Below are positions 1,890-43,840 of a DNA stretch of 64,000 nt, in pieces. Source of the DNA: Halorussus sp. MSC15.2 (GTDB lineage Archaea > Halobacteriota > Halobacteria > Halobacteriales > Haladaptataceae); the NCBI RefSeq assembly GCF_010747475.1, contig NZ_VSLZ01000006.1:124001-188000 (forward strand). The letters run 5' to 3'. The stretch's first letter is position 1. Each line of letters starts with the position of its first letter. The notes beneath the pieces were generated by a model that was not told the origin of the DNA, ran no database searches, and saw nothing but the letters and a program-made list of their open reading frames with translations. The position numbers were made by a program, and so were the translations under genes.

Positions 1890-1897
1890 GTGCCGGA

Positions 1898-3557: not shown

Positions 3558-3563
3558 CGACCC

Positions 3564-4350: not shown

Positions 4351-4386
4351 ACTCTTTTACACTGTCTCCTGGTAGTATTGCACATA
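4351..4386 (+). promoter_or_regulatory. Promoter of the second rhodanese/MBL gene
   Basis: A TATA-like CTTTTAC at 4354-4360 lies about 30 nt before the ATG at 4387, so the leader would be very short or absent. TAGTATTGCAC (4373-4383) sits between TATA box and start, where a bound regulator could block initiation. A related GGTATTGTATT lies at about 4320-4330. Confidence 0.45.
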
Positions 4387-19484: not shown

Positions 19485-19934
19485 TTAATTGACCATATTA
19501 GTGGTGACCGATTCAATGGCCGATTCACACACTTCTCCTAATGGATTCAATAGTTCTTCTTCAAATCGTGCCTCGGAGTTCTCCTCGCCTCTGTGAGAGT
19601 ACATTTTCTTTTCGTCGGTCCAGCATCCAAACGTTCCGTCAAATCTGCGCTGGGTTTCAAGAAACCGGACGGCATGTTGTATGACGCTGCGATATTCCGT
19701 GACGAGAGGAGTATCGGAGAGCTCTTTTAGGCATCTGGCACCTTGGTCAAGACTGTAGTCGGCGAACAACTGGAAGACTTTTCCGAGAGTGAGGAGATTT
19801 TCACTTTGTTCTTGATAATCGATGTCTTTCTCGTTCGTCTCGTCACGTAGCTCTTGCCAATTATCTATCAGCACTCGTGCGAGTATCCCACCAACAACTG
19901 TTGGATGATAGTAACAACGCCACGTTTTTTTCAC
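19485..19934 (-). CDS. C-terminal part of a split alpha-helical protein beside the lanthipeptide genes
   Basis: A 149-aa reading frame opening with GTG at 19934 (VKKTWRCYYHPTVVGGILAR). It continues with alpha-helical segments including VRFLETQRRFDGTFGCW. Together with the preceding 297-aa gene it reads like one protein of about 450 aa, similar to DUF6895-type helical-repeat proteins, in which a tyrosine-histidine segment followed by a G-I-L-A-R helix comes directly after the first part. The two overlap by GTGA beside a run of seven A. Either this is true translational coupling of two subunits or a one-base frameshift has split one gene. Function unknown. Confidence 0.55.
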   Translation of the reverse strand: MKKTWRCYYHPTVVGGILARVLIDNWQELRDETNEKDIDYQEQSENLLTLGKVFQLFADYSLDQGARCLKELSDTPLVTEYRSVIQHAVRFLETQRRFDGTFGCWTDEKKMYSHRGEENSEARFEEELLNPLGEVCESAIESVTTNMVN

Positions 19935-20824
19935 TTCCTTCCCAATTGTCTATGCCTGGTCCAACGAACTTTTTTCAATTCCTCCGTACTCTCAACTGAG
20001 AACGAAAGATAGCCGTCGTCGTCCAAATGATCGAACAGCCAACTGAAGGTAAAACGCGCCAGTCCTGGCGGCACCTGTCGCTGTAACACGCCACAAATCA
20101 GTAATTCTGCGACGAGGTCGGTGTGTCCCTCAATCATAAATCGAAGGATACCCGCCTGAAGCACGGAAGGGTGATTGTATTCAAGCGGTTCGTCCGGGAA
20201 TGCATCGCTTCCACTGCCGAGATTATGATAGTAAAGAAACTCATGCGTCAGTCCATATACATCATTTTGATTGACTTGCGCCATATTCAGTGACCGAGTG
20301 GCGTAGCCGTGGTCAAGTAACTGGTTAAGATCGAAGTCGTGACCGTCGTATCCATACATACGGCATAGATTCCACAGATCAAGTTGGCGAGCAGGGAGAC
20401 GGCTCTTTGACCACGTTTCTGGCCAGTCCAGAACATCGTCCAGAACGCGCTTTGCATTTGGGTCAAGTTCGTCTATTGTGGAGAGATATACCAGTGGATA
20501 CCCTAGCTTGTCGAGTTCGGTTGGCTTTCGTCGCAGTAGACGGTAGAACGATTCATCATTTGCTCGAGTCGCAAGCAAATTTTTGAGTTGCGGTGCTGCG
20601 GAGTCGTCATGCATGTCGGCGACGTACAAGTAATGTGCTGCCTCTGTGAGGGCTTTTCGACGAACCTCACGGGTTCCGGTGTCTGTCCAGTAGAATGGGT
20701 CGAATTGGTCGGCATTCTCGTTCATCCAGTGGTCAGTGTGTTCTTTGAATGTTTCCGCTCGGTCTACGACGTTGTTACAGGAAATCAGTTCAGTGGGAAC
20801 TGCTGCGTGTGTTTTGTCACTCAT
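19931..20824 (-). CDS. N-terminal part of a split alpha-helical protein (DUF6895-like) in the lanthipeptide locus
   Basis: A 297-aa protein, mostly helical, with conserved-looking blocks RQLDLWNLCRMYGYDGHDFD, YGLTHEFLYYHNLGSG and ELLICGVLQRQVPPGLARF. These resemble DUF6895-type (alpha/alpha-barrel-like) proteins. The ATG at 20824 (MSDKTHAAVP) is chosen over one three codons upstream, because it lies about 50 nt after a TTTAAGTA box that also stands before the lanthipeptide precursors. The gap of 111 bp from the cyclase gene and its own TATA box suggest independent transcription with shared control. A modifying, carrier or immunity role is possible but unproven. Confidence 0.6.
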   Translation of the reverse strand: MSDKTHAAVPTELISCNNVVDRAETFKEHTDHWMNENADQFDPFYWTDTGTREVRRKALTEAAHYLYVADMHDDSAAPQLKNLLATRANDESFYRLLRRKPTELDKLGYPLVYLSTIDELDPNAKRVLDDVLDWPETWSKSRLPARQLDLWNLCRMYGYDGHDFDLNQLLDHGYATRSLNMAQVNQNDVYGLTHEFLYYHNLGSGSDAFPDEPLEYNHPSVLQAGILRFMIEGHTDLVAELLICGVLQRQVPPGLARFTFSWLFDHLDDDGYLSFSVESTEELKKVRWTRHRQLGRK

Positions 20825-20867
20825 TGGTAACACCGGTGGTGTGCCGCCACAAGAAACAGTATATATT

Positions 20868-20935: not shown

Positions 20936-22144
20936 CTACTCAAAGCGAAGAACAGACGGTATTTCCGCGGGAGCCAACAGTCGGAGAAGCGTATATCCGA
21001 CTCCAGTCGTGCCCAAGAAAAACACAGGGTTATCAATGCCATCGATATGGCCCGGATCCACCCGATAAGAACCGGCCCGCCGTCGCCTCTCGATGGCGTC
21101 AGACGCCAACTCCCATGCCGCTTCGAGGTACTGCTCGTCATACATTCGCCCAAGATCGATAAGAAGATTAATCTGAGCGAACGTACCGTGACAAACCGAA
21201 TCCTCAGCTAGCAACTGCGGTTCGAGACCGTTTCGAACACGGTTCATGTCACGCTCAAGCGTCTCCGAGGTGCGGTATTGGAGACTACCAAGGCGCGCAT
21301 GACCAATACCAGCTAAACCATTACACCACCAGTGCGAGTAGTGTTTGATACCCACAAAGTTTGACTTCCAATTATGCTGGTGTTTCGAGTAGAATAGATT
21401 CTCGAACTCAAGGGCGTTCCTTGCGGCAACCCGGAATGCATCGCGTTGGGTGTGTTGATACAATCGATAGAGCGAATAACTGATGCCCGCGACTCCGTGA
21501 CCCATTCCCGTCGAGGTACTGAGAGTACCCTCCTTTCGACTCGTATCCCACAACTTGTAGTCCGCCCACTTGTCGTACCTGCTATCAAGTAGATGTTCGC
21601 CACATAGAATCGCTTTATCCAACGCCTCAGAGTTATCCGAGTGCTCCCAGTGACGCAGTAATCCAGTAACGGTGCCCGCAGCACCGAGCAACATATCGTA
21701 TTGGTCATCGTCCTCAATGATTTCTTTAGACAGTTCGGAGACGAGGTCTGCAGCTCGATTCCGATATCGTTGGTTGTCAGTGAGTTCCGAGAGTAAGTCT
21801 AGTCCGTAAACTAACGACCCAACACCCGCTCCAGCACCGATGTATGCGGTGTCGACTAGTTCTTCTTCGTCCCTATCAAAGATGAAATCTACCGCCTGTT
21901 CTGCTTTTTCACGGTATATTTCGTCTTCAAAGTATTGGTACATCGCTGCAAAGTAGAGAGCGATTCCGATTTGTCCAGAGTAAAGACCGTTCCGAGTCTT
22001 TAAGTTCAGGCCATCAAGGGAGGACATAAACCCAACTCGGCCAGTTGTGCCATCTTCGAACGTGACTCCTGTCCGTTCGACATCTTCGACTATCGACTTT
22101 ACTTCGCAGCGAATGTCTTCCGCTTGAGTGAATTGTTCAGTCAT
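20936..22144 (-). CDS. LanC-like lanthionine cyclase (detached LanM C-terminal domain)
   Basis: A 402-aa LanC-like alpha/alpha barrel. The zinc ligands are visible: Cys in HWWCNGLAG (about residue 274) and the adjacent Cys-His in VCHGTFAQ (about 318-319). The catalytic-site motif GMGHGVAGIS (about 213-222) matches the LanM cyclase GxxHGxAG block. Repeated inner-helix motifs are also present (GLYSGQIGIALYF; GAGAGVGSLVYGL; LLGAAGTVTGLL). It catalyses addition of Cys thiols to dehydrated Ser/Thr to form (methyl)lanthionine. In standard class II systems this domain is fused to the dehydratase. Here it starts as a separate gene overlapping the dehydratase stop by ATGA, so equimolar synthesis and a two-subunit enzyme are likely. 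Confidence 0.88.
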   Translation of the reverse strand: MTEQFTQAEDIRCEVKSIVEDVERTGVTFEDGTTGRVGFMSSLDGLNLKTRNGLYSGQIGIALYFAAMYQYFEDEIYREKAEQAVDFIFDRDEEELVDTAYIGAGAGVGSLVYGLDLLSELTDNQRYRNRAADLVSELSKEIIEDDDQYDMLLGAAGTVTGLLRHWEHSDNSEALDKAILCGEHLLDSRYDKWADYKLWDTSRKEGTLSTSTGMGHGVAGISYSLYRLYQHTQRDAFRVAARNALEFENLFYSKHQHNWKSNFVGIKHYSHWWCNGLAGIGHARLGSLQYRTSETLERDMNRVRNGLEPQLLAEDSVCHGTFAQINLLIDLGRMYDEQYLEAAWELASDAIERRRRAGSYRVDPGHIDGIDNPVFFLGTTGVGYTLLRLLAPAEIPSVLRFE

Positions 22145-24108
22145 ATTTTTCCCTCCGGATGTGGTTTCCGCTCACCATTCAGTTCGCTCAAACACGCTCG
22201 AATCAACCCGACCTGCTGTCGCTTGTCGCGTTCGCATAAATCCTCAATTCGGTCCATAAATCGCTCCACGCCCGTTTTTTCGGTCAGTGCTGAGAGTATC
22301 TTCTCGTCGTCGAAGTACAGTCCGGGGTCGTCCGAGTATACTGTAAATTTCGGGATGTCGCCCCGATGGAGGGCCTCACGCTCGGCTTTGATTATTTCAT
22401 CCCATAGCGTTGGACTAAGTTCCGGCATTTTCGTCTCACGTCTAACCACCGGTGAGTCTGGGCGTGTCGAGAGAACCTCTCGAATTTTATAGCTGTAGAG
22501 TGCGCCACTCCGGAGATATTTCGGTGTCGTAAGTGCCTTCAGAACTAAGCTATATACTCTTGAATTACGGAGAAGAACTCTCGTCTGGAGGCTGTCGAAC
22601 TGGTCCGAAACGAGATCCGTCACGCGGTCGCTCGCGCCTTTGATAGCATCATACGTCGCCTCGAAACCATCTGCGATTTCGTCAACGAACTGGCTCGGCG
22701 GTGCAGGCTTCCCAGACAATGTCGGGAAGTTCTTTTCCCGCGATCCCACAGGGGTATGATATTCAATGTCGATTGCGTCGGTATTAACATCTTTCCACGA
22801 GATGTGTTGGTTTCGTGCTTCTCGCCCATCGATTCCAGCTATCCCAGAAGTATCGTCAGGAATCGCGTCGTGAGGGAGCGCTCCAATACCAATAACGCTA
22901 TTATTCATAATATGACGACGGAGCTTCTCGTTCATTTTCCGCTGAGGTTTATCAACGGGTGTACTGTTCATTTCAAGTATCGTCTCGGGATCCACCAGAA
23001 CAGGAGAATTATCTGTAGCGATTAGATTCTCGAAGTGGCAGTCAGTGACATTCAACACGTAAAGAACACACAGTAGTGCTCCTGCTCCGCGATAATACTG
23101 TTCGATGGTCTCGATTTCCGAATGGTCCGCCTGCTCAACTTTTTCTATCCACCCGTAGTCGGGTCTGACCAGTGTCGCTGGCGTCCTTAATTCAGGCACA
23201 TCATCAAATGTCTCGTACACCCAAGTCTCGAAGTCGTACAGACGGTTCTCTGGGTCGATGCTCCGTGGCTTGTACACGACTTCGTTTCCAGTGTTGAACT
23301 CAACGAGCAGTACCTGACTCCCCCCTGAATGTAAATCTCCTTTCCCAGAAATCCCGACAACTTGCTCACCATCGCCAATGTTGACAACACGGTTGAGTTC
23401 TTGTATGTCGTCATTCAATCGAGACAGGAACTGTGTGACCATGGCCCGCCACTGGCGACTCACAATGGTGATGAGCTTCGCAGCCATCGGAAACTCCTCG
23501 AAGAACGATGCTGCTCGTTTCTCAAAGAACGCAGTAACGTACGCATCGTACCATTCCGTTGATTCCGAGGAGAGTTGGTCGTTTTCGAGTACCTCCGAAT
23601 CTGTCTCGTAGATGTAGGAGATATAATCGATATGGAGTGCTTGTGCAGCGACTTCGGCGAGTTGATCAAGCAACAACCACTCGAAGTCTTGTAAACCATC
23701 TTCAGATACTCGTTTAAGACTCATCTCTGCAGTGAGACGACTGCGACTCTCTTTGACGATTGGCCAGAGAATATGTTCGAACGGGACATCTTTGCCGTCG
23801 TAAGGTGTTGTTTGGGTCGTATCGACTGTAGAAAGTGTCTCGACAATGCCGGTGAACTCTGTAATCCATTGGGGTAAATCCTCGTCGTCTGGCCACCGGT
23901 CGAACTGGACGTACGAATCGATGTTGTCGGAGTCGAGTTTTGATTCCTTCCAGAGAATATCGACTTGATTACTGTCAATATCATCGAAGGGTGATGACTG
24001 TTTGTCTGAATCAGTCGGTGCCGTTTCACGCTGAGACGCGTGTCCGTTCTGCACTCGGTCGTGTAGTAATTCTCCCGTCGCTGCAATGTGATAATAATCC
24101 GGATTCAT
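22141..24108 (-). CDS. Class II lanthipeptide dehydratase (detached LanM N-terminal domain)
   Basis: A 655-aa protein matching the DUF4135 dehydratase domain of LanM enzymes. Key motifs are GDLHSGGSQVLLVEF and VVYKPRSID (about 258-284), the lipid-kinase-like lysine/arginine site; TDCHFENLIA (about 355-364) and VLVDPETI (about 370-377), the catalytic and metal-binding acidic residues; and LSPTLWDEIIKAEREALHRG (near residues 555-575). It phosphorylates and eliminates Ser/Thr in the precursor core using ATP. The ATG at 24108 is preferred because it overlaps the stop of the 32-residue reading frame before it (24105-24108). The protein ends exactly at the usual domain junction, so the split is clean rather than a truncation. 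Confidence 0.88.
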   Translation of the reverse strand: MNPDYYHIAATGELLHDRVQNGHASQRETAPTDSDKQSSPFDDIDSNQVDILWKESKLDSDNIDSYVQFDRWPDDEDLPQWITEFTGIVETLSTVDTTQTTPYDGKDVPFEHILWPIVKESRSRLTAEMSLKRVSEDGLQDFEWLLLDQLAEVAAQALHIDYISYIYETDSEVLENDQLSSESTEWYDAYVTAFFEKRAASFFEEFPMAAKLITIVSRQWRAMVTQFLSRLNDDIQELNRVVNIGDGEQVVGISGKGDLHSGGSQVLLVEFNTGNEVVYKPRSIDPENRLYDFETWVYETFDDVPELRTPATLVRPDYGWIEKVEQADHSEIETIEQYYRGAGALLCVLYVLNVTDCHFENLIATDNSPVLVDPETILEMNSTPVDKPQRKMNEKLRRHIMNNSVIGIGALPHDAIPDDTSGIAGIDGREARNQHISWKDVNTDAIDIEYHTPVGSREKNFPTLSGKPAPPSQFVDEIADGFEATYDAIKGASDRVTDLVSDQFDSLQTRVLLRNSRVYSLVLKALTTPKYLRSGALYSYKIREVLSTRPDSPVVRRETKMPELSPTLWDEIIKAEREALHRGDIPKFTVYSDDPGLYFDDEKILSALTEKTGVERFMDRIEDLCERDKRQQVGLIRACLSELNGERKPHPEGKI

Positions 24109-24203
24109 TGTTTGGACTCTCCTGCAAGAACCCGTCCACAGATGGATGACGGACAAAACTCCGTCGCCTTTGTCGTCGCGAACAGGGTTTCGGCGTCGCT
24201 CAT
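24105..24203 (-). CDS. 32-residue Cys-containing peptide coupled to the dehydratase
   Basis: ATG at 24203, TGA at 24105-24107, four-base overlap with the dehydratase start. The peptide begins MSDAETLFATT and its second half contains EFCPSSICGRVLAG, with two Cys flanking two Ser, a pattern compatible with a small lanthionine ring. It lacks the SVDQFE leader block of the two confirmed precursors. It could be a third, short-leader precursor, a leader-like accessory peptide, or a translational-coupling reading frame. Coding is supported by the overlap and composition, not by a recognised family. Confidence 0.5.
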   Translation of the reverse strand: MSDAETLFATTKATEFCPSSICGRVLAGESKQ

Positions 24204-24327
24204 AGTATTACAGGCTTGCTGGGCGTCGTACTTGTTGTCTATACGACTGTATTGAAAGGCATCGTGACTGTGTTTTATCTGTATTAAAATTACGTGAGGG
24301 AAGGTTCGAATTATTGGCTTGGTTAAT

Positions 24328-24468
24328 TCAGCTGGAGTCGGAACCGACGAAGCACGTGAGTGAGAAGCACTCTGCTTGCTGCACGTTGTCTTCGAGGGCT
24401 TCGTCGAGGTCGCGTTTGTGTTTGTCTTCAAACTGGTCAACCGACGTGGTCTGTGGTTTAGCGGACAT
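24328..24468 (-). CDS. Lanthipeptide precursor 2
   Basis: A 46-aa precursor starting MSAKPQTTSVDQFEDKH. The acidic leader contains SVDQFE, shared with precursor 1, and ends in EALEDN. The core contains AECFSLTCF followed by VGSDSS, giving Ser, Thr and two Cys in the motif C-x-S-L-T-C-F. The ring could join the Ser or Thr to either Cys. There is no double-Gly cleavage site typical of many class II leaders. It lies 14 bp after precursor 1 and about 120 bp before the 32-aa frame, all on the same strand as the split synthetase. Confidence 0.85.
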   Translation of the reverse strand: MSAKPQTTSVDQFEDKHKRDLDEALEDNVQQAECFSLTCFVGSDSS

Positions 24469-24482
24469 TGTTTTGGATGAAT

Positions 24483-24620
24483 TTAGTTGGAGTCGGAGTC
24501 CCAGAAGCACGTGAGGGAGCCACATGCCTTCATGGGTGCGGTGTCGTCAAATTCGTTGTTGATGTCGCGGCTGTGCTTGGCTTCGAATTGGTCAACCGAC
24601 TTGGGTGTGTCAGATTGCAT
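24483..24620 (-). CDS. Lanthipeptide precursor 1
   Basis: A 45-aa precursor beginning MQSDTPKSVDQFEAKHSRD. The leader is acidic and helical and shares SVDQFE-x-KH-x-RD with precursor 2. The core reads KACGSLTCFWDSDSN, again with the invariant C-x-S-L-T-C-F and a SDS tail. Two different cores under one enzyme set suggest either a two-peptide product or diversification. No GG processing motif is seen. It is the first gene after the promoter near 24683. Confidence 0.85.
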   Translation of the reverse strand: MQSDTPKSVDQFEAKHSRDINNEFDDTAPMKACGSLTCFWDSDSN

Positions 24621-24673
24621 TGTTGTAGTGGATTGTTGGGGTTGATCCTTCCTCACGCACTATCACCTACTGA

Positions 24674-24692
24674 CCAGAGATACTTAAAGTTA
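24674..24692 (-). promoter_or_regulatory. Promoter of the lanthipeptide precursor operon
   Basis: Minus-strand reading AACTTAACTTTAAGTATC includes the box TTTAAGTA, about 60 nt before the ATG of precursor 1. This predicts a leader of about 30-35 nt. The same box precedes the DUF6895-like gene. Confidence 0.5.
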
Positions 24693-25259
24693 AGTTTTTT
24701 TACTAATTCTAGGATATATGAACCTGTGTTGTTATATTTTAATCCACCATAATTTGTTAAAAACAAGTCATTTAGGTTAAACTTTCTATGCTTATGATTT
24801 ATGGATTATTTGGTTATCATGAGGTATCAAGTCCTGATAGCTACACCGTAAAGAGCGAGGAGAACACCCGCATCCAAAGGCGCAGGATGAATCCGACAAC
24901 CCATTTTCAGTCTATCGGCGATAGGTGGACGGAAAATTTCCACCATTCTCAATCCGACCTTTTACTTTAATGCAGGCGCTAAAACATCATCGTTATGAAA
25001 CAACTCGGCGAAGTCCGAGTAGCGTTAACGAGAGAGAAACTCTCGTTCTTACAGCAGAACGCGTAACGTTCTTAGTAGTTTGCACCCTGTTTGGGGGAAG
25101 GATAGGAGTACCGACTCGTTGGCACAGTCAGTAGTCCACCTTCACGACTTTTCCAGCGGATTCTAGCCATAGACACAAGTGATATACTGCAAACTCTAAT
25201 ATGCCAACTGCGGTCGAGGTACTCTATCTTCCTCCGGGCGAATAGTATACGTGATATAA
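24693..25259. other. AT-rich spacer between precursors and the Spo0M-like gene
   Basis: No convincing gene. A 22-codon plus-strand frame starts at the ATG near 24995 (MKQLGEVRVALTREKLSFLQ), and its DNA includes a short hairpin (GAGAG-x-CTCTC type, about 25030-25046). It is too short to accept. The region is markedly lower in GC than the flanking blocks. Confidence 0.35.
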
Positions 25260-25979
25260 CTAAATCTCTTCAATGAACGACTTAATGTGGTCGTAGACTA
25301 CACCTTCATCAGTTCGTTCAATTTTCGTTTGAGGGATATTCTCCCAATTAGTCATATCCTTTGGACAGACGTTGCCATCACCTGCCGCAAACACCGTAAC
25401 TGTCCCCTCACTCGACCGGCATAATAGCTCCAGTTTGTCGAATTTGGACTGGAATGACCCTTCAACAGGCTGAAATACGAGTCGCTGGACAAACGGGGTA
25501 TCACAGGTAGCAGCCGCTTCGACGCACTCAAAGTCTCTTGGAGTGAACCCCAACTCAATCATAGACTTAAAAACCGCTTGCAGTTGCGGTGCCGTGACAT
25601 CAATGTGTCGCTCGTAGGTCGTGGTCTCTTCTTCTGTGAAAATTTTTATCGAAGAGATTACATCAATACTACCGACAGTCTCAGGGGTCTCCCATGGAAT
25701 CGTAATGGTCGAAGTCCGCGTCTCTGTGAGTTCGGTTTCAAACGTGGCATCAGAAACAAGAGTAAATCGGTCAATAGTGGCCCGCTGAAAGTCATCTCCA
25801 GTTCGATACGGAACGTTGAGCGCGAGGGCAATTTCTTTAATTTCCCATTGACAGTTCGTCCCCCGGAACGTGACATCGATGTCCGTACTTTCCCCGATGA
25901 CGACGTAATTTTGTGAGAGACTGATTTCGATTGTACCCTCACTGACGCTGTGGCTTGTAAGAACGTTGTTTTCGTCCAT
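25260..25979 (-). CDS. Spo0M/arrestin-like protein
   Basis: A 239-aa protein with an N-terminal beta-sandwich (VSEGTIEISLSQNYVVIGES, then DIDVTFRGTNCQWEIKEIAL) and a C-terminal half with LQAVFKSMIELGFTPRDFEC and VQRLVFQPVEGSFQSKFDKL. These match the two arrestin-like sheets of the sporulation-control protein Spo0M family, found in bacteria and haloarchaea and of unclear biochemical role. It lies between the ABC transporter genes and the precursors on the same strand. A scaffold or stress-response role is possible; a direct link to the peptide is not shown. Confidence 0.75.
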   Translation of the reverse strand: MDENNVLTSHSVSEGTIEISLSQNYVVIGESTDIDVTFRGTNCQWEIKEIALALNVPYRTGDDFQRATIDRFTLVSDATFETELTETRTSTITIPWETPETVGSIDVISSIKIFTEEETTTYERHIDVTAPQLQAVFKSMIELGFTPRDFECVEAAATCDTPFVQRLVFQPVEGSFQSKFDKLELLCRSSEGTVTVFAAGDGNVCPKDMTNWENIPQTKIERTDEGVVYDHIKSFIEEI

Positions 25980-26113: not shown

Positions 26114-26932
26114 TTAGTAGTGGCCGAGCAATCCGTTCTGTCGCGCTCTAATTCCTGCCCGATAGAAACTGTAGTAGCCGATTGTGAAATAGACGACGCT
26201 TGTAGCGACAAGAAGACCAATTTCAGTTGCCGGGAATTCCCAGAGTCGAATACTGTCTTCCATCGCTCTTCGAGTCAAATAACTACCGTGGGTGACTGGA
26301 AGAAGCTTCAGGACTTCTAAATCTCCAGCTGGAGCGGCGATTAGTCCAACGAATGCAAACTGGACAATTTGAAACAAGTTCTCGATGCGTTTGTATACGA
26401 GAGCAAGCCCAGCAAACAAGAATCCAATACCAACGATTGACATCAAAGTAAGCGCTAACAATGGAAGTATCGTTAGCGGGTCAACAGTCAGCCAACGGCC
26501 TGTTGTAGCCATCATGAACACCAGTAGTCCTGCCCCCCAAAGGAAACTGAAAGCGATGTTAACGATTGATTTGACGGCCATGACAGTCCGGAATCCGTGA
26601 GGGGACATGAACAACCGCTCTAGAGTACCCCACTGTGCCTCACGCGTAACGTTCCACGCGAGTCCGGAGTAGGACGTAATCGAGAGGGTAAAAAGGAAGA
26701 ATCCAACAATAATTCCGTTGAGAGAATCGGTTAATGAAGGGCCTGCAATAGCCTTTCCGCCAAAGAAGACCAACGAAAAGAACGCTACAAGCGTCAAGAA
26801 CAGACTCGCTGTATTAACGGGATAACGAACGAAAAGAACGTACTGTTTATAAAAAACAACTTTCACCAAGGCTAGCAAGGACGGACTATCATCGTCAGCT
26901 AGTTCCGTCAGCTTGCTACTGTCAGTCGCCAA
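26114..26932 (-). CDS. ABC-2 type permease, partner of the adjacent ATPase
   Basis: A 272-aa protein with six predicted helices. Examples are LFLTLVAFFSLVFFGGKAI (near 45-63), IVNIAFSFLWGAGLLVFMMA, LLALTLMSIVGIGFLFAGL and ATSVVYFTIGYYSFYRAGI. An EARWGTLERLFMSPHGF-type cytosolic loop between helices two and three (seen as EAQWGTLERLFMSP) is typical of ABC-2 exporters. The start appears to be TTG at 26932, overlapping the ATPase gene by 11 bp; TTG is rare in haloarchaea. It probably exports or extrudes a peptide or drug-like substrate and may give immunity. Confidence 0.8.
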   Translation of the reverse strand: MATDSSKLTELADDDSPSLLALVKVVFYKQYVLFVRYPVNTASLFLTLVAFFSLVFFGGKAIAGPSLTDSLNGIIVGFFLFTLSITSYSGLAWNVTREAQWGTLERLFMSPHGFRTVMAVKSIVNIAFSFLWGAGLLVFMMATTGRWLTVDPLTILPLLALTLMSIVGIGFLFAGLALVYKRIENLFQIVQFAFVGLIAAPAGDLEVLKLLPVTHGSYLTRRAMEDSIRLWEFPATEIGLLVATSVVYFTIGYYSFYRAGIRARQNGLLGHY

Positions 26933-28195: not shown

Positions 28196-29845
28196 TTATT
28201 GGACTTCTGCTCGACGACGGAGCACTGCGGCACCGAACAAGACGAGGCTCACGCCAACGAACGCGAGTGGGACGCCTGCTTCAATACTCCCTGTTGTCGA
28301 GCCGATGAAATCGAGTGGCACAGCACTGTTGAGCGGTCCGACGTACCAAATCATTAGGTACACGATTTCGAACAACCACGTAGACCGACTCCAGATTCCC
28401 GTCGCAATGGCTAGTGACGGAGCAAACAAGACCCCGCCCGCATACCCGACAAGTAGTTCTAGTTGACCGGCGCCGACAAACAATACGAACAGACCACCAC
28501 TGATACTCGCGGCGACGGCGACACCCGCAAGCCACTCTGCTATGAGCTGTCTATTCGCATATTTTGACGACAGCACCAAGTTCGTCATTCGATGCTTCAC
28601 CGTCCGCACGCCCATGCCCGACCAGATGAATATCGGCCACACGAACGCAAGTGGGAGGACAATTTGGCGAGCAGGCGCGACCGCCGCATCTGTTGACCCA
28701 CCAGTCGTAAGCATAAGAATTGGACTCCCAGCAAGAGCGACTGCACCAACGTACCACCACCAAGGTTGCCCTCTAAGCGCAAGTCGAACCTCCGCAGCGA
28801 CGAGTCGCCCAAAACCACCAGCGTCACGATCAGTCACAGATGTGAGCGACATCGAATCAATTGACGGGGGTTCGGTGTCATCTTCGATAGGAGCATCTTC
28901 TTGGCCGACTCCTGGCACGACTGCGACGAGTCGCGCAAGCCATCCGGATCCGTCCGATGATTCGTGTGACGGCGTTCGGTCAAACAACACCGTCGTGGCG
29001 AGCACGATGGTGATAGCAGGCACGAACAGGCCGATGCGTTGTGCATAAATCCAGAGTGGCCAACTACCCCCAGCGTAGCGGAACGTCTTGTCACCATCGA
29101 GTGTTCCAATCGATGGCACCCCACCGCCGTAGTTCGGGGCTTCAGTGAGTAACGCGTCAACCGTCAGATCGTATATTGCTATATGTCCCATGATGTCACC
29201 CGCCCTCGCTTGGAGTGGAATCGCCCCGGGCATCGAATTCTGTGTCGCAGCTAATGCAGCGAGCGAGAACGTCGCGAGTATCACATACAAGATATTGCCG
29301 AGTGTGCCGCTCAACCGATCTACCGTCTCGAAAAAGAGAGCGACAGCACCAACGAGGGCACAGACTGGAAGCGCGAACGCGAATAGCGGTGCTAACAGTG
29401 GGAGTGGATTCGTCGGTCCAACGCCGTGAATTGCGTGATTGGCGATGGTTGCAAATCCGAGCGTGAGGAGAATCACCACGCCGAGAGCAACGTTGCTGAG
29501 CCACTTTCCAGCGAGGTATGTCCTCTCTGAAACCGGAGTGCTGGCAACTAACTGGTCAACGTCGTATAGCCGGTCACGTTCAAGCGTATTCTTCATCAGA
29601 TAGAACCCGCCAAATAGGACGACTGCCGACCCAGTCAATCCGGCCTTCAATCCGATGAATGCCGCTGTGTTCACCCCGTGATAATTCGTCGTGGTACTCC
29701 CGTCGGTGACTTGATAGGCCAGTTCGATTTGTCCGACGTTGACGAGAAACCCGATATACGCGATAATCGCAAGAACAACCAACAGGCGGCGCGACCGGAC
29801 TCGTTGCAGAAAATCTGCCCGTGCGATGTTGTAGAGTCGATGCAT
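28196..29845 (-). CDS. Large ABC-2 type permease
   Basis: A 549-aa membrane protein with two sets of about six helices separated by a polar stretch (residues about 325-380, rich in Asp/Ser). The N-terminal set includes RLLVVLAIIAYIGFLVNVG, and the loop MKNTLERDRLYDVDQLVAST is typical of haloarchaeal ABC-2 permeases. The ATG at 29845 begins one base after the upstream ATPase stop, so the two are one operon. The substrate is unknown. The size suggests two fused permease halves serving one ATPase dimer. Confidence 0.8.
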   Translation of the reverse strand: MHRLYNIARADFLQRVRSRRLLVVLAIIAYIGFLVNVGQIELAYQVTDGSTTTNYHGVNTAAFIGLKAGLTGSAVVLFGGFYLMKNTLERDRLYDVDQLVASTPVSERTYLAGKWLSNVALGVVILLTLGFATIANHAIHGVGPTNPLPLLAPLFAFALPVCALVGAVALFFETVDRLSGTLGNILYVILATFSLAALAATQNSMPGAIPLQARAGDIMGHIAIYDLTVDALLTEAPNYGGGVPSIGTLDGDKTFRYAGGSWPLWIYAQRIGLFVPAITIVLATTVLFDRTPSHESSDGSGWLARLVAVVPGVGQEDAPIEDDTEPPSIDSMSLTSVTDRDAGGFGRLVAAEVRLALRGQPWWWYVGAVALAGSPILMLTTGGSTDAAVAPARQIVLPLAFVWPIFIWSGMGVRTVKHRMTNLVLSSKYANRQLIAEWLAGVAVAASISGGLFVLFVGAGQLELLVGYAGGVLFAPSLAIATGIWSRSTWLFEIVYLMIWYVGPLNSAVPLDFIGSTTGSIEAGVPLAFVGVSLVLFGAAVLRRRAEVQ

Positions 29846-29846
29846 C

Positions 29847-30722
29847 TCAGACACCGTCCTGTTGATCGATTGTCTTGAGATATGCATCTTCGAGGGTCGG
29901 GGAGACCTGAGTCGCGTCATCTGTCGGTGGCGTCACTGCGATTAGTCTGACTTTGACGCCGTCCGAACGCTGGACAGTACTGCATATCTGGTACTGGTTG
30001 CGAAGCGTAGATAATTCGTCTCGTGGAACGAGACACTCGTAAACCTCTCCAGCGACTCGGCCAATGAGTTCCTCGACGTTCGCATGGGTCAGTAGTTGGC
30101 CATCATCGAGGATGGCGATTTTGTTCGCGGTTGCTTCCACGTCTGGAACAATGTGTGTTGAAAGAATGACAACACGGTCGGCAGCGGTATTAGATAAAGC
30201 ACTTCGCAACCGAACTCGCTCTTCGGGGTCTAATCCGACCGTCGGTTCGTCAGCAATGAGAAGGTCCGGGTCGTTGAGCAACGCTTGCGCAATACCCACG
30301 CGTTGGCGCATCCCTCCAGAGAACGTCTTGAGCTTTCGGTTTCGGACGTCACTCAGATTTGTGAGTGTAATCATCTCGTCGATGCGTGCGCTTGCAGTCT
30401 CGTTATCGAGGCCGCGCAGTGCGGCCATATATTCAAGGAACTCTTCGAGTGTTAGGTCGGGATACACGCCGAAATCTTGAGGTAGATAACCGAGAATAGA
30501 CCGAACAGCATTAGGCGATGCGACTATGTCCGTGCCTTCCCAATAGGCAGTGCCGGTTGTTGGTTTCATAACCGTCGTAAGGATATTCATGAGGGTCGAT
30601 TTTCCGGCACCGTTTGGTCCTAGTAATCCGTGAATCCCCTCGTTTAGTTCGAGGGAGACGTCACGGATACCCCATGTGTCCTCTGCGTACTTTTTCCCAA
30701 GTTCTTCAGTACGTAACTTCAT
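29847..30722 (-). CDS. ABC transporter ATPase, second system
   Basis: A 291-aa ATPase with Walker A GPNGAGKSTLMN (about 35-46), Q-loop YLPQDFG, signature FSGGMRQRVGIA and Walker B LLIADEPTVGL. The ATG at 30722 is preferred; upstream in-frame residues are AT-driven aromatic sequence without conservation. It pairs with the 549-aa permease. The presence of two complete transporters in line with the lanthipeptide genes resembles export plus immunity arrangements, but neither carries a C39 peptidase domain. Confidence 0.88.
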   Translation of the reverse strand: MKLRTEELGKKYAEDTWGIRDVSLELNEGIHGLLGPNGAGKSTLMNILTTVMKPTTGTAYWEGTDIVASPNAVRSILGYLPQDFGVYPDLTLEEFLEYMAALRGLDNETASARIDEMITLTNLSDVRNRKLKTFSGGMRQRVGIAQALLNDPDLLIADEPTVGLDPEERVRLRSALSNTAADRVVILSTHIVPDVEATANKIAILDDGQLLTHANVEELIGRVAGEVYECLVPRDELSTLRNQYQICSTVQRSDGVKVRLIAVTPPTDDATQVSPTLEDAYLKTIDQQDGV

Positions 30723-31213
30723 GGCGGATTGTATCAGTACCACGTACAAATATTTTTTGAGCATGAATTTGGTGTAAGAGAATATATAAAAATACCATTC
30801 AAAAGCCACTAGATTTGGAGTTATAGGATTAATATTATATTTGGCCTAACGGTCATAACTCAAACTAAAGAATAACCAAAACGAATATTTAATCCAATAG
30901 AATGTAAAGAAACAGAGGCCCAAACCCACACTCTAATCATTATAGCTAACAGTCCCACCATTCAAGATTTATTGATGGTTAAGAATATGGGGTTTTGTAT
31001 GAAGATGCGGGAGAATGTATAGTTTCAATAAGCCAGCGCTGGTTTGACGATTTATCTTCTGCTCAGGCAACGTTCGACGGGATGTTTTGGCAACTGATTA
31101 ATCTGGATGTCATCGAAGTAATACGAAACCGCTCGGTGCGGTCATCGAGTGGCGACTCAAGCAATTTTGGGAAAATACGTTCTGTCCACGCTGCGACTAT
31201 CAGAGCATTGTGA
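30723..31213. other. AT-rich spacer with decayed coding traces
   Basis: No intact gene. Around 31147-31200 on the plus strand, one frame reads VIEWRLKQFWENTFCPRCDY, suggesting a zinc-ribbon scrap of the kind seen at transposase N-termini. It has no continuation. TATA-like sequence for the minus-strand ATPase at 30722 is present near 30830. Confidence 0.3.
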
Positions 31214-35509: not shown

Positions 35510-37057
35510 TCATTGAGTCTCTTCGCGGTGAATTCCCAGAATCAAATACATTATTGCAGCTCTTGATTTCTGCATGATTTCAAGAGATTTTGTTTCAAGT
35601 CCACTCAGATATAGGTCGTGTGAGAGTTCATTGGACCTATTGGAGAACTCCGAACTTTCAGAAAAATCAGCCAGCACTCTTACGTGACCATGTTCCAATT
35701 CGTTCCTCAGTTTTCGTAGTTCCTCTGCCCCAGGTTCAAGGGATTCAGTTACTGTCAGTTAGCTATTGAATTCTAAGTCCTTGCTTAGCCAGAATAATCC
35801 TCTAAGCGGCCAATTTTTCTTGTTTTGGAATTCTGGAGCGAGTTGGTTTTTGCCCCCGGATTTGTACCAGACATTGCTGAAATATAGCTTATGTTCTTTA
35901 ATATAGTTGAGTCCAAAATAATGGGATATGAACTTTGCAATCTTGTCGAATATTGAATATGAGGCTCTAAATCCGGACTTGATAAGTTCTACCCCCATAG
36001 AGTGTCGGGAGTAATCAAAGGTGTTCCTGCGAGTAACAGCCTTATCGCTATAATGGTCTGGAGAGGCTGAAATACCTCTCCAGAGCTGATGGCGAGCAGA
36101 GACGTATTCTTGCTTGATTTGATTAAGGAAACCAGTACAAGATATCAGTTTCTCGCTATCTGACTGGCTTACCTTGGGAAGGTGAATTGAATCCTTAGCT
36201 GCCCTTGACTCAGTGGTGACATCGTTTAGCGGATTAAGGAAAAGTACATTTTCAAGACACCATTCCCGGTACTTTTGCTCTTTTGAACTGCCTAATGAAA
36301 TATCCGACAAGTCAATATCAAGTTGCAGAATTTTTGAGCTGACGTTAGATTGAAGCCATTTCAAATTCTGCTGAAATCGTTCTCTCATGTCTTGATGAAG
36401 TTGGCCATCTAAGAGAGCTTGACGTAGATAGTCATGAGCGGTTTGAAAGAGAACGACACGTTCTGCAGGATTCGGTACGTGTCGTGCATAGGACAGTAGC
36501 GACATACCTATTTGTCCCAGAGCACGAAGAAAGGGCGGGTCAATCTCGATTGCCTTCCTCCAATTCCAGAATGCTTCAATCCATCTGCCGATGTTTGAGA
36601 GAACGTTTCCCAAGTTTGTATACGATTTTTGGATTTCTTCACTAGTCAGTTTTTGAATTCCCTTTGAATCCAATGCCCTTCTAAACCGACGAATGATGAC
36701 CTCCATCTCAGGTTTTTCCCAGTCCCAACTTGTTAACCCTCCGTGAATACGTAGTAATCCGGTTTGAGCATTACCAAGGGTGTATTCTAACCTTGCTTCC
36801 TCTTCTGGCGAAAGATCCCGATTCTGGAGGTTAGTACCAAGATTAGTGATTTTCTGAAATCCCTCTTCCCGATCCAATATATCGGACGCATCATGCAATA
36901 TACCTAGGTAATTGATTGCGTTGCCAGTTATGAAAACATCTAAGTCATCTATGAGGGACAAAAAATCATAGACTATCGAAGGCTTTGATTCTAAATTCTG
37001 ATACAATTCGAGGAGGAGATTCTCATAGTATCTCTGTCGGTTAAAACCACTAGCCAT
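35510..37057 (-). pseudogene. LA2681-like HEPN protein gene broken by an in-frame TAA
   Basis: The first 432 residues (ATG at 37057) contain TPR-like helices (SYTNLGNVLSNIGRWIEAFW, then WRKAIEIDPPFLRALGQIGM) and then the LA2681-type HEPN start (YREWCLENVLFLNPLNDVTT; ASYSIFDKIAKFISHYFG). A TAA at 35759-35761 interrupts just after KDLEFNS. The same frame continues with TESLEPGAEELRKLRNELEH through to 35510, including the HEPN catalytic RNELEH (Rx4H-type) motif. The presumed RNase site is therefore cut off from the rest. HEPN proteins of this type are thought to act as toxins or antiviral RNases. Low GC marks it as transferred. Confidence 0.8.
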
Positions 37058-37122
37058 GCAGGTAATTACCAACTCACTGTTATAATAGTTTGGTAGTGTT
37101 GGTCTACAAAATTCCCAAAATG

Positions 37123-37434
37123 CTACGGTTCTAAATACTCGTAGTACGCCCCTCGCGTTTGTCCGACCTTCTCAATCAGTTCATACCGCGCCAACGACTG
37201 CAAATACCGCCGCCGGGTCGGCTTCGACTTCGGATTCCCCACACGCTTCTCATACTCGTCATGCAATGCGCCCGCCGCGATCTCCCCTGACTCCCGAACG
37301 ATGTCGAGCAGAATCCGCTGGTGGGTAGACAACCGCTGGACGTTCCGCTCGTGGACCTCGGTCTCAACGTCATCAGCGATGTCTTCGACCAGCCCAGGAC
37401 TGAGCGAGTCACGCTCCTTAATCCGGCACGCCCC
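37123..37434 (-). pseudogene. C-terminal fragment of an Orc1/Cdc6 replication initiator
   Basis: The frame reads IKERDSLSPGLVEDIADDVE, then RLSTHQRILLDIVRESGEIA and TRRRYLQSLARYELIEKVGQ to the stop at 37123. This is the C-terminal winged-helix domain of haloarchaeal Orc1/Cdc6. The AAA+ part is absent; similarity ends near 37434. A 69-aa protein from 37332 could still be made but would lack the first helix. It may mark the scar of a lost replicon or an integrated plasmid. Confidence 0.75.
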
Positions 37435-37661
37435 ATGCCCTGACGAAGCAACGTGATACTGAACCGTCGCGCTTCGGTGCTCTTCCTATGGATGTCGAAT
37501 AGGTCCTCCTTGGGAAATCGGACCCCAAAGGACTTGCAGAGGTACTTTTGGATATTCGAAAATAGTGTAGTTAAAGATAGACTCGCCACGTCGTCGTGAA
37601 CATACGTTCTACACTATCTCAATAGGGATAGATTCTTAAACTATGATACAAACCCGTGGGT

Positions 37662-40600
37662 ATGTCCACCCAGATCGAGGCCATCGACATCGCCAACTGG
37701 GACTCGCTCTCTGATATTGCCGAATCACTCGAAAAACGCGGGCTGAAGCGACAACCCGACCTCGGCGATTCGAACGAAATCGTTCTGCAACTCTCAGATG
37801 ACGAGTTCATCAAGCTCGTGGAAGCTGGGCCTGGTGAGCACGCTCAGGACTTCAAGCCCGAGAGCATGACTCAGCACACGAACTTCGTCGCTACGAACGA
37901 TTTCGAGGATTTCACCTTCATCACTCGGGTCCGAACGTGGGACCAAGAACACGGCCGAATCAAATACCAGAAATTCTCCTTCTCGAAAGACCAATTCACT
38001 CGCGAATCGGGCGAGAAACGGACCGTATTAGAGAAACTGAACAGCATCGAATACGGTAACCCGGCGACTATCTATGAGGATATCTACGATACGAAGAAGG
38101 TCGTCAAGGAGTTCTACCGGCAGTTCGAAGACCTCCGCACCGACCTTGTTCAGAAGGTTGCGGGTATTCCCGACGACCGCGGGGACGCTAAGCGCCGTTA
38201 CGTGCAGGTCGTACTCGACCGGATGATCTTCCTCTACTTCATTCAGGAGAAGCACCTGCTCGACCACGACAAGGACTACCTCCGGAAGAAACACGACGAG
38301 TACGCCGAGGAGGGCGACGTCTACGACAGCTTCTACCACGATCTCTTCTTCGACGCACTCGCAGAGGGCCGACTCGACAACAAGTACGGCCGAGTCCCAC
38401 ATCTCAATGGGGGACTCTTCTCGAAGAATCCCATTGAGGAAGAGTTCGAAGACGCCAAACTCGGCGAGACCGCCGAAGAGACGAACGCTTGCTTCGACGA
38501 GATTCTGGACTTCCTCTCAGATTGGAATTGGAACGTCGACGAACGCCTCGACATTGTGGACCCGAAGAACCTCTCCCCGGCGGTCCTCGGTCACATCTTC
38601 GAGCAGACGGTCAACCAGAAGGAGATGGGGGCGTACTACACTCCAGAGGAGATTACGGGCTTCATGGCTCGCCGGACAATCCATCCCTACCTTCTCGACC
38701 AACTCAACGAGAAGGTGGGTGCCGAGTACGAGGAACTGGACGAAGTCTTCGGATTCAAGCCAGCCGACGCTGGTGGCGATACGACGGTGGCCGCCGACGG
38801 AGGGACGATTACAACTCAAGCCCCCACGGAGCGAGTGACGCAGGACCACGTCGAGACGCTGTACTTCGACGTGCTGAAAGAGACTCGCGTCCTTGACCCT
38901 GCAGTCGGTAGCGGTGCATTCCTCCTCGCCGCTCAGGAAGTCCTACTGGACGTGTACATGCAGTGCATCGAGTACTTCCAGGAACAGGAAGACAGCCAGC
39001 CGTGGGAGCTGACCGACCGAATCAAGGAGGAACTCGAAACCATTGAGGGGCGGCAGGGGAACGCTTCACTGTACGCCAAACGTGAGATTATCCTGAACAA
39101 CCTCTACGGCGTGGACATCGACGACGGCGCAGTGGAAATCTGCAAGCTCCGACTCTGGCTGTCGATGGTCGCGGATATCGAGGACGACCCTGACGAGGTC
39201 GAGAAGCTTCCAAATATCGACTTTAATATTCGACAAGGCAACAGTCTTATCGGGTTTACTGAGGTCAAAGAGATCGCTCGTGAAGAGCAAGGTGATCATT
39301 CGCTGTCGAACTTTGGGGCTGGCGCGGGAACAGGAGTAAAGGAACTTTATGACGACGTGATTCAGGCACAAGAGCGTCATCGTCGTTCAGATTCCTCTTC
39401 CGAGGCTCAGAACGCCAGACAAATTGCAGAATCAAAAATCGACCAGCATAGCCGGAAGCTGGACGAAAAAATCGTAGAGGAATTTCAAGAGGCAGGAATT
39501 GAAGGTGTGGACTTGGAGAGGGTCCAAGACTATTCGCCTTTCCATTGGGTACTTGAGTTTGCTCCGGTTTACCGGGATGGTGGATTCGACGTTATCATCG
39601 GAAACCCACCTTGGGATATGCTGTATGCAAATCGAGACGACTTCTTCGTCAGATATGACGAACAATTCCAATCTTATTCCTCCGATAGAAAGGACGTGGT
39701 AATGGAGTTCTTGCTGGAAGATGACACCGTCAAAAAGGAGTGGGAGGAGTATCAGGAGTCAATTGAGACGCGAGCAGACTACTTCACGAAAGGGAATACT
39801 TACAATCTCCAGTCGCCGGTCGTTGGAGGCAGGACGATGCCCACCAAGAACGAACTTTCAGCGCTTTTCCTTGAGAGGATTTACAAACTCTCTAATCCCG
39901 GTGTTAAAGTCAGTCTCCTTCTTCCTGGAACCATATTTGGGGGCGTAATGGGGAAAGACCTCCGTTCACACCTACTTGACAATGCGGACGTACAGAGTCT
40001 GATTGGATTCGAAAACAAAGGTATCTTTAATCAAATTCATCCTCAATACCGATTTGCGGTCCTTACATGTGAGTACGGTGGTAAGACAAAGCATTTGCGA
40101 AGCGTCTTCAATCAACGGGATACGGGTGTTCTTTATGACATAGAGGAAATCGCAACTGAAACTCCTCGAAGTGTGCTTGTAAGCTACTCCCCTGAGGGTG
40201 GTATCTTCCCGAATATCACATCACAGCGGGAGGTAGATGTTCTTAAAAAAGTCGTGGAGCAACCCTCTCTCGGTGAAGATATCGAGAATGCATGGTCAGT
40301 CGATATCCTGACGAAGGAGTTCGTAGAGTCGACTGACAAGGACCGACTTTTAACATCGCCAGATGACGCGGATTATCCGGTCTACGGTGGAAAGAATTTC
40401 CACCAATTCGAGTACGACAATACTCACACCGAGGAACTTGACGATCCAAAGTACTGGAGTCGAGACCTATACGATCCAGAGAACAGTGCTAAGTACCGTG
40501 TCCGCGAAAAGAAATTCAATCGTGGAAATCTCAAGCGGGCCATTTACGACGCCTTTGGAGGCGAAGAGACGAGCAAATCACAGGTTCAGTTTGTAGATGA

Positions 40601-41282
40601 CCTTCTTGAGGATTATCGCGGACATGGTCTCGAAGAGCAAGACGTTCTGCTTGACTGTTCGGAGTACCGAATTGGTATTCGAGACGTGTCTCGTTCTCGC
40701 GACGAACGGACAATCATTGCGACTGTCCTACCCAAAGATGTCGTTTGCCTCCATACGATTAATACGCTCAAACCATTCGAGATTAACCCGGAGGAATCGC
40801 ACCTCTCTGAGTCACCTCTATGTTCGCCTTACGTGCGCCGATTCACAGACAAAGAGCTGTTCGTTGCTACTGGTCTTCTGAACAGCATTGCATTTGACTT
40901 CCTGATGCGGACGAAGGTCGAGACGCATATTATAAAACGGGAGATGCTGGAATCACAACTTCCCCGTCTCACCGAAGGTGACGACTGGTTCCATTATATC
41001 TCCGAGCGCGCCGCTCGCCTGAACTGCTACGGTGAGGACTTCGAGGAGATGCGCGAACGACTCGGCGGTATCGAACCTGCCACTACCGGGCAGGAACGCC
41101 GTGAGCTTCAGGCCGAGATCGACGCCGCGGCGTTCCATGCCTACGGGCTTGATGCTCAGGAGGTCAAGTTCATCCTCGACGACTTCCACCGCGTCGAGAA
41201 TCCGCGACTGATGGACGAGGACTACTTCGACATGGTGTTCGAGAAGTACGACTACTTGGACATAGAAGGGCCGATGGAATAA
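37662..41282 (+). CDS. Large Eco57I-type adenine DNA methyltransferase
   Basis: A 1206-aa protein. N-terminal region (1-330) has no clear domain. Residues about 330-350 (NQKEMGAYYTPEEITGFMAR) form the N6-adenine methylase target-entry motif, motif I is LDPAVGSGAFLLAA (about 411-424) and the catalytic motif is IIGNPPWDM (about 645-653). The C-terminal third resembles the target-recognition part of type IIG and BREX PglX-like enzymes. No PD-(D/E)xK nuclease motif was recognised. The ATG at 37662 is preferred over a GTG six bases upstream, because a TATA-like TTCTTAAAC lies 29 nt before it. It faces the GmrSD-like and helicase genes and probably marks self DNA for them. Confidence 0.85.
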   Translation: MSTQIEAIDIANWDSLSDIAESLEKRGLKRQPDLGDSNEIVLQLSDDEFIKLVEAGPGEHAQDFKPESMTQHTNFVATNDFEDFTFITRVRTWDQEHGRIKYQKFSFSKDQFTRESGEKRTVLEKLNSIEYGNPATIYEDIYDTKKVVKEFYRQFEDLRTDLVQKVAGIPDDRGDAKRRYVQVVLDRMIFLYFIQEKHLLDHDKDYLRKKHDEYAEEGDVYDSFYHDLFFDALAEGRLDNKYGRVPHLNGGLFSKNPIEEEFEDAKLGETAEETNACFDEILDFLSDWNWNVDERLDIVDPKNLSPAVLGHIFEQTVNQKEMGAYYTPEEITGFMARRTIHPYLLDQLNEKVGAEYEELDEVFGFKPADAGGDTTVAADGGTITTQAPTERVTQDHVETLYFDVLKETRVLDPAVGSGAFLLAAQEVLLDVYMQCIEYFQEQEDSQPWELTDRIKEELETIEGRQGNASLYAKREIILNNLYGVDIDDGAVEICKLRLWLSMVADIEDDPDEVEKLPNIDFNIRQGNSLIGFTEVKEIAREEQGDHSLSNFGAGAGTGVKELYDDVIQAQERHRRSDSSSEAQNARQIAESKIDQHSRKLDEKIVEEFQEAGIEGVDLERVQDYSPFHWVLEFAPVYRDGGFDVIIGNPPWDMLYANRDDFFVRYDEQFQSYSSDRKDVVMEFLLEDDTVKKEWEEYQESIETRADYFTKGNTYNLQSPVVGGRTMPTKNELSALFLERIYKLSNPGVKVSLLLPGTIFGGVMGKDLRSHLLDNADVQSLIGFENKGIFNQIHPQYRFAVLTCEYGGKTKHLRSVFNQRDTGVLYDIEEIATETPRSVLVSYSPEGGIFPNITSQREVDVLKKVVEQPSLGEDIENAWSVDILTKEFVESTDKDRLLTSPDDADYPVYGGKNFHQFEYDNTHTEELDDPKYWSRDLYDPENSAKYRVREKKFNRGNLKRAIYDAFGGEETSKSQVQFVDDLLEDYRGHGLEEQDVLLDCSEYRIGIRDVSRSRDERTIIATVLPKDVVCLHTINTLKPFEINPEESHLSESPLCSPYVRRFTDKELFVATGLLNSIAFDFLMRTKVETHIIKREMLESQLPRLTEGDDWFHYISERAARLNCYGEDFEEMRERLGGIEPATTGQERRELQAEIDAAAFHAYGLDAQEVKFILDDFHRVENPRLMDEDYFDMVFEKYDYLDIEGPME

Positions 41283-41741
41283 GTAGCAAGCCGAAATTAC
41301 TCGCTTAGCGATTCTTCACCGAGAGCCGCCGAGAACACCGTCTTGTCGGGCCTGGATGATGAGTTGGTCCCCAATTTCTGGTGGCACGTTCAGGCCGGAT
41401 GTCTAGTCGTAGTGGACTAAGACAGAGTTGGGGTCGTCGGCGTTCGCTGCTTCGTCTGTGTCCACAGAGAAGACGAGGACTTTCACTCGGGTCTCACCGT
41501 TGGCCTGCCACCCTGAAACACTCCCAGTACTCCCTCTTCTCCGAGACCTCCTTAACGCCAATTTCGCCAAGAATAGGATCGAGACTTGAACTTGTGTCGG
41601 GGTACAGTTCGCCAATTACTTCCCTACCTCCGTGAACGTCTTAGTTTGCCATCATGGGACGTCTTGGTCGGTAGTATTCGACTACCCTGACCCCAGAACA
41701 AATGCGCTACAAGTTCAACATTCTATGTCCTCTTGTGGAAT
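41283..41741. other. Convergent spacer with a frameshifted small-gene remnant
   Basis: On the minus strand (about 41640 down to 41403), one frame encodes EVIGELYPDTSSSLDPILGE and runs to EYWECF. The next frame then gives WQANGETRVKVLVFSVDTDE and ends at a stop at 41403. It reads as one about 85-residue protein with a single-base lesion and no start codon. The family is not recognised. The rest holds nothing I can name. Confidence 0.4.
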
Positions 41742-43744: not shown

Positions 43745-43840
43745 AATTCTGCTGTCAAACGATATCCCGATATATCTTACGACAGCTACAGACAATTGGT
43801 ATGAAAACACCAGACGCAAGGTCAAATTGATAGTTAGAGT

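Follow-up and report, generated by a model that had tools for sequence, protein, structure and literature searches.

A two-protein class II lanthionine synthetase beside a tandem pair of probable bicyclic lanthipeptide precursors in a haloarchaeal gene cassette

In class II lanthipeptide systems one enzyme carries out both dehydration and cyclisation, a double-Gly-type cleavage site and a C39 transporter-peptidase are typical without being universal, and two-peptide lantibiotics pair two distinct modified peptides, each usually with its own LanM, that act in synergy. Among described systems the closest are the class II lanthipeptides archalan alpha and medlan B of Haloarchaea (PMC10105419, PMC12144867). 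The archalan alpha core GCGFTCSPFSSW is reported to contain rings C2-T5 and C6-S10 (PMC10105419), and the archalan beta core GLPSASMYSFEHCC, reported there from Halorussus salinus, was also noted at the end of a precursor in a genome of the same genus as the window (G398, L035 717-908), which points to Halorussus as the window's genus. The main texts of both papers are without mention of split LanM, epimerisation, D-amino acids or DUF6895; PMC10105419 refers once to 'a few truncated LanMs' from earlier studies, which could be split ones. Among the titles and first lines of abstracts listed, no description of a split archaeal LanM or of an epimerase in a lanthipeptide cluster was found.

The window (the whole 64-kb stretch of DNA analysed here) contains a ten-gene cassette, including two tandem precursor genes, that was noted in the same order and orientation in Halopiger djelfimassiliensis. 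A gene for a Spo0M-like protein and two pairs of ABC ATPase and ABC-2 permease genes lie upstream of the precursor genes LanA1 and LanA2, while the genes downstream encode LanM-N, LanM-C and then a DUF6895 protein in two fragments (Table 1). LanM homology, with catalytic motifs, was evident in both the dehydratase and the cyclase part, but in two overlapping ORFs rather than one bifunctional polypeptide. Each LanA consists of a leader and a C-terminal core with Cys and Ser/Thr and adjoins the synthetase, and it is likely that from LanA1 and LanA2 this two-protein class II synthetase makes short bicyclic lanthipeptides. Judged from sequence, the system would work like that of a class II lanthipeptide, and it is called a variant here because it is without the one-protein synthetase and without the double-Gly/C39 pair. 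The split synthetase and the DUF6895 gene are more unusual features than those to which an earlier note on this DNA had drawn attention.

Table 1. Locations of cassette genes and of related or neighbouring features
Feature	Location	Strand	Remarks
DUF6895 C-terminal fragment, other frame	19485..19934	minus	By-eye comparison with L073:13411-14796; by itself unmatched in Pfam
DUF6895 N-terminal fragment, 300 aa, of frame-disrupted gene	19931..20833	minus	PF21836, 86.2 bits (cut-off 23.8)
LanM-C, stand-alone cyclase half (LanC-like; 402 aa)	20936..22144	minus	PF05147, 175 bits; WCNG, CHG
LanM-N, stand-alone dehydratase half (DUF4135; 655 aa)	22141..24108	minus	PF13575, 306 bits; GDxH, YKPR, DxHxxN
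LanA2, 46 aa	24328..24468	minus	ATG at 24468; relative L073:9372-9506 (Halopiger)
LanA1, 45 aa	24483..24620	minus	ATG at 24620; relative L073:9230-9367 (Halopiger)
Spo0M-like protein	25260..25979	minus	PF07070; also in Halopiger, G346 and G124 clusters
ABC-2 permease 1	26114..26932	minus	PF12698
ABC ATPase 1 (DrrA-like), no C39	26922..27932	minus	PF00005; TIGR01188 below its cut-off
ABC-2 permease 2	28196..29920	minus	PF12679, PF12698, PF13346, all weak and below Pfam cut-off
ABC ATPase 2	29847..30809	minus	PF00005
HEPN LA2681 protein	35759-37072 (window)
Type IIG restriction-modification enzyme	37656-41282 (window)
Two proteins	41933-47614 (window)		PADLOC HEC-06/Orf5 and HKD+Snf2 helicase models
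PGA_cap protein next to LanA	L076 10915-12171		Compared with PDB: relatives are lasso epimerase MslH
PGA_cap protein next to LanA	L100 12333-13589
DLTE-leader peptides	L093 8971-9491		Own genome, contig C2
DLTE-leader peptides	L095 7391-8170
DLTE-leader peptides	L096 7631-7768
DLTE-leader peptides	L098 8538-8802
DLTE-leader peptides	L099 7560-7754
DLTE-leader peptides	L078 13460-13908

DUF6895 genes adjoined all five split synthetases of one sub-branch of the LanM tree (own genome, Halopiger, G346, G124 and G392), and none was seen near the other two split synthetases (G346:C285 and G346:C224). Across 391 Halobacteria genomes DUF6895 occurred at 12 places in nine genomes, with a LanM or lone dehydratase gene adjoining at five of these places (own genome, Halopiger [G151], G308, G346 and G124); in G392, a genome from outside this draw, the gene was beside LanM too. 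The window fragment and the intact relatives matched PF21836 above cut-off. Four of the five LanM-linked proteins formed one branch (100/99) that mirrored the order of the LanM tree, and the G392 protein, encoded on the strand opposite to its LanM, fell elsewhere in the family tree. A lasso-peptide epimerase of the DUF6895 family is reported, to judge by its title, in a paper cited in PMC13352647. In the G346 and G124 clusters a PGA_cap protein homologous to the lasso epimerase MslH also adjoined LanA. The G346 protein matched only three PDB sequences at E <= 0.01 (E 1.5e-25), which are entries of MslH or its variants (PMC10406935), and kept six of the eight named MslH residues (D11, E44, H88, D91, H259 and H261, with N87 and H295 not kept).

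We tentatively propose that the split class II synthetase and a dedicated epimerase (DUF6895, joined by an MslH-type enzyme in two clusters) could give bicyclic lanthipeptides with D residues by direct epimerisation, not by reduction of dehydroamino acids, and that DUF6895 may also serve a second haloarchaeal family of ribosomal peptides, Cys-free and with DLTE-type leaders. The intact clusters would, on this hypothesis of epimerisation, encode epimerised bicyclic lanthipeptides. That DUF6895 is here some other tailoring enzyme or a protease-like partner, with no more than family membership in common with the epimerase, is a real possibility as well, since the Halopiger protein, modelled with AlphaFold2 (pLDDT 89), resembles helical toroid enzymes and recalls not only cellobiose 2-epimerase but also terpene cyclases and glycosidases. 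The model aligned with squalene-hopene cyclase 8paj (Z 16.8, rmsd 3.7, 258 residues aligned) and with cellobiose 2-epimerase 3wkf (Z 16.0, rmsd 4.2, 284 residues aligned), a shared fold that does not show function; a Foldseek search gave 566 matches, none at E <= 0.001, and the sequence matched nothing in the PDB better than E 0.32. In the DUF6895 alignment, H201, D243, E247, Y312, H313 and D410 of the Halopiger protein stand in invariant columns. Against a role other than epimerisation, DUF6895 repeatedly adjoins small precursor-like peptides, and the MslH homologue is present in two clusters.

In the window itself the DUF6895 gene is broken, with fragments in two frames that meet at GTGA and no single open frame, compared with an intact Halopiger gene of 461 codons. 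Both a recent break and a sequencing error fit this finding. The cluster might be decaying, so that the window yields either nothing mature or a product that lacks epimerisation; this is rather unlikely, given that the synthetase halves, precursors and transport genes are all open and that the N-terminal fragment still looks constrained in its sequence (61% identity to the Halopiger protein over 291 columns, end branch 0.36). Besides the possible sequencing error, a second, intact DUF6895 gene is present on contig C2 of the same genome (L093) and might, speculatively, act in trans.

DUF6895 genes without a full LanM adjoined very small peptides, often in tandem, that have a leader of the DLTE type and short ends mostly free of Cys (e.g., MNSEMTDLTEEVSDEEDVWKGSVALISL). 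ABC transporters lie close by, as does Peptidase_S9 at some of the loci, and these peptides possibly represent an unrecognised haloarchaeal ribosomal peptide family. Locus L078 (G308:C11, 8298-16058) contained DUF6895, an MFS transporter, Peptidase_S9, four tandem precursor-like ORFs, three of which end in AIAWITW or AIAWISW, and a LanM dehydratase half that stands alone and whose motifs are altered, in a genome where no LANC was found.

The two tandem precursor ORFs that had been described in the earlier note were recovered on re-reading the window, with correct coordinates and sequences (MQSDTPKSVDQFEAKHSRDINNEFDDTAPMKACGSLTCFWDSDSN for LanA1 and MSAKPQTTSVDQFEDKHKRDLDEALEDNVQQAECFSLTCFVGSDSS for LanA2), 14 bases apart. 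The cores, from the first Cys, are CGSLTCFWDSDSN and CFSLTCFVGSDSS, respectively. Also as described, both peptides have the leader motif SVDQFE-x-KH-x-RD, the C-x-S-L-T-C-F core and the Ser-Asp-Ser tail, and neither has a GG/GA site. The further claim, that the two diverge just around the ring region, did not hold, as the N-terminus and the linker (INNEFDDTAPMKA in LanA1, LDEALEDNVQQAE in LanA2) also differ; 22 residues of 45-46 are identical. A search of the 391 genomes with LanA1 gave matches at E <= 0.001 in two, the own genome and H. djelfimassiliensis IIH2 (G151), at two places in each (E 6e-28 to 3e-4), whereas the remaining 86 of the 88 genomes listed gave only E 0.0086 to 0.985. The Halopiger matches sit at the corresponding place of the syntenic cassette, and the LanA ORFs are therefore more than chance. 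Their identification as lanthipeptide precursors was supported by the synthetase genes directly downstream, by the conserved cassette and by the retained Cys and Ser/Thr residues. Synteny with Halopiger ruled out unrelated ORFs, and overlapping ORFs in other frames at 24105-24752 were set aside because the LanA frames are the conserved ones.

It had also been suggested that the pair might form a two-peptide product. Tandem pairs with unlike linkers in three of the five sub-branch clusters (own, Halopiger and G392) speak for a two-peptide lantibiotic that needs both members for its activity, but this is improbable, since in both two-Cys pairs the members share one predicted topology and one synthetase, since the G346 and G124 clusters have one precursor each (in filtered lists of small ORFs), and since pair scores do not separate a LanA1 line from a LanA2 line. 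Scores were 101 for the own pair and 90 for the Halopiger pair, compared with 99 between own and Halopiger LanA1 and 93 between own and Halopiger LanA2, and these scores indicated no ordered orthology of LanA1 and LanA2 between the two clusters.

Eight precursors were found in the five sub-branch clusters (two each in the own, Halopiger and G392 clusters and one each in G346 and G124); the small-ORF lists had passed through filters on length, Cys or acidic excess, which may have hidden others. The pattern C-x3-[S/T]-C-x3-[S/T] fitted all six two-Cys precursors and excluded the two of G392, which have one Cys each (WCSITA and WCTITATKE). Conservation of the cores in relatives, by which the earlier note proposed to judge its reading, held for the Cys and Ser/Thr positions and failed for the inner Ser and the Phe, neither of which is kept in Halopiger (CPIATCL and CYVLSCA). 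In the Halopiger cores, CPIATCLVYSDN and CYVLSCAVASGND, positions 5 and 10 are the sole Ser/Thr after the first Cys. Since the intervening residues vary, what is conserved is the four reactive positions C1, 5, C6 and 10. From these positions and the archalan alpha ring pattern, rings C1-T5 and C6-S10 are predicted for LanA1 and LanA2, side by side as in archalan alpha; C1-S10 with T5-C6 is a possible alternative order. The small overlapping rings predicted earlier, which would use Ser3 and Thr5, are quite improbable: Ser3 is present in four of the six two-Cys precursors but in neither of the Halopiger pair, all six keep the four reactive positions, which makes two consecutive rings the simpler reading, and the rings of archalan alpha are reported as consecutive (PMC10105419).

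Cys-first patterns were noted at five of the 27 fused loci with candidate precursors (37 fused loci examined) and beside the second, fused LanM of the own genome on contig C3, where the adjoining precursor ends in ACPSYTCADPCCY (L080, 7702-7827 and 7977-11249), and show that such patterns recur in haloarchaea. At locus L011 (G326, 388-5196), one fused LanM is surrounded by four candidate precursors whose cores have the pattern C-x2-[ST]-C.

The two synthetase halves covered complementary parts of TIGR03897, LanM-N matching positions 2-526 with 372.5 bits (cut-off 304) and LanM-C positions 592-932 with 250.7 bits, which alone is below this whole-protein cut-off. The Halopiger dehydratase is 53% identical to LanM-N. 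TIGR03897 was matched in 40 of the 391 genomes, and in a tree of 47 dehydratase regions (seven split, three lone and 37 fused, by a quick method without bootstrap and including L079 of G107, from which no conclusion is drawn because part of its reading is out of frame) the seven split synthetases were one side of a branch with SH-aLRT 99. Their junctions were ATGA in the own (LanM-N stop and LanM-C ATG overlapping), Halopiger and G346:C285 loci, TGATG in G392 and G346:C224 and TAATG in G346:C170, and in G124 the ATG follows six bases after the stop. The motifs GDxH, YKPR and DxHxxN were kept in all seven dehydratases and the cyclase zinc motifs in six, the G392 cyclase having WRFG and CDG instead and thus being without two zinc ligands. 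At the G392 locus, from the same genus as the window (L074, G392:C1 5143-10324), this split LanM is accompanied by the pair of one-Cys precursors and, on the other strand, by DUF6895. That assembly had introduced a frameshift into a normally fused LanM, as the broken DUF6895 gene next to the synthetase might suggest, was rejected as scarcely credible because the seven split loci come from several genomes, group on one branch and have clean stop-start junctions, mostly ATGA, TGATG or TAATG.

Lone dehydratases in G308, G107 and G183 had altered motifs or a disturbed frame (GDxH and DxHxxN were absent from L075 and L078), and LANC was not found in these three genomes. Searches with a five-row alignment of the sub-branch gave, by score, no further member in the G151 family (125 genomes, 13 matching) or the G124 family (170 genomes, nine matching); one more split candidate, G124:C1:2397804-2399495, came from the wider family searches. 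In a plasmid collection 191 records matched the dehydratase half, all at less than 60% identity, and most of the 15 that were listed of these 191 were annotated as LanM. The idea that antiSMASH is blind to split LanM was dropped, as its 2014 class rule, as given in PMC3930743, needs only PF13575 in the cluster.

No C39 domain was found by Pfam in the ABC proteins of the cassette, no peptidase gene was seen there, and the annotated start of ABC ATPase 2 may be too far upstream. The earlier note had concluded that the lack of a double-Gly site and a C39 transporter leaves leader removal unexplained; the lack is real, but the gap is not peculiar to this cluster, because maturation by proteases from outside the cluster is also reported for published archaeal lanthipeptides. 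With larA and larM alone from one archaeal cluster, trace product was obtained in the host, and maturation of another archaeal lanthipeptide by proteases outside the cluster was inferred (PMC12144867). The GC content of 46-55% at 18-32 kb of the window, compared with 62-68% at 8-18 kb, fits acquisition of the former stretch by transfer. Rfam and tRNA scans of the window gave no matches, and positions 35759-47614 are likely a defence island.

The ORFs and their conservation, the split, the catalytic motifs and the cassette are observed directly, and the split and the ring assignment are argued from conservation; the chemistry, ring order, epimerisation, export and use set out here are inferences. 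The leader, through SVDQFE-x-KH-x-RD, would be bound by the separate dehydratase LanM-N, which would phosphorylate and eliminate Thr5 and Ser10, counting from the first Cys. LanM-C, probably translated by stop-start coupling on the same mRNA, would then close one ring between Cys1 and residue 5 and a neighbouring one between Cys6 and residue 10, both Cys-first, and in intact relatives the DUF6895 enzyme may convert at least one residue from L to D. A host protease from outside the cluster would cut off the leader, the ABC-2 systems would export the product or protect the producer, the Spo0M-like protein is perhaps accessory or protective, and the likeliest use would be antagonism between haloarchaea. 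The scheme is not valid for the whole sub-branch, given the one-Cys precursors and the altered cyclase of G392.

A natural two-protein LanM on a single branch bears on how LanM couples dehydration and cyclisation, which could here be purified, swapped and timed apart. If DUF6895 is an epimerase here, thioether rings and enzymatic L-to-D inversion would occur together in Archaea, a combination not found in the titles and abstract openings listed or in the main texts of PMC10105419 and PMC12144867, and D residues could make the product resistant to the host proteases responsible for its maturation.

Compared with archalan alpha and medlan B, the LanA pair is likewise haloarchaeal, with a short core, two consecutive Cys-first rings (predicted here) and, as in the cores quoted for those peptides, no double-Gly site. 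Archalan alpha has the pattern C-x2-T-C-x3-S with rings 1-4 and 5-9, whereas the LanA pattern makes the predicted first ring one residue longer. LanM of the archalan alpha/medlan B type is fused whereas that of the window is split, and L016 and L022, the loci with GCGFTCSPFS precursors, have fused LanM on another branch of the 47-row tree. Both window halves align in order with LicM2 and CylM (PDB 6st5 and 5dzt) and share their kinase-type and zinc motifs, but each of these enzymes is one continuous chain (979 and 993 residues). With MslH (PMC10406935) and the reported DUF6895 epimerase (PMC13352647) the sub-branch clusters share DUF6895 in every case and an MslH homologue in two; those epimerases belong to lasso clusters, whereas the genes described here stand beside lanthionine synthetases in Archaea.
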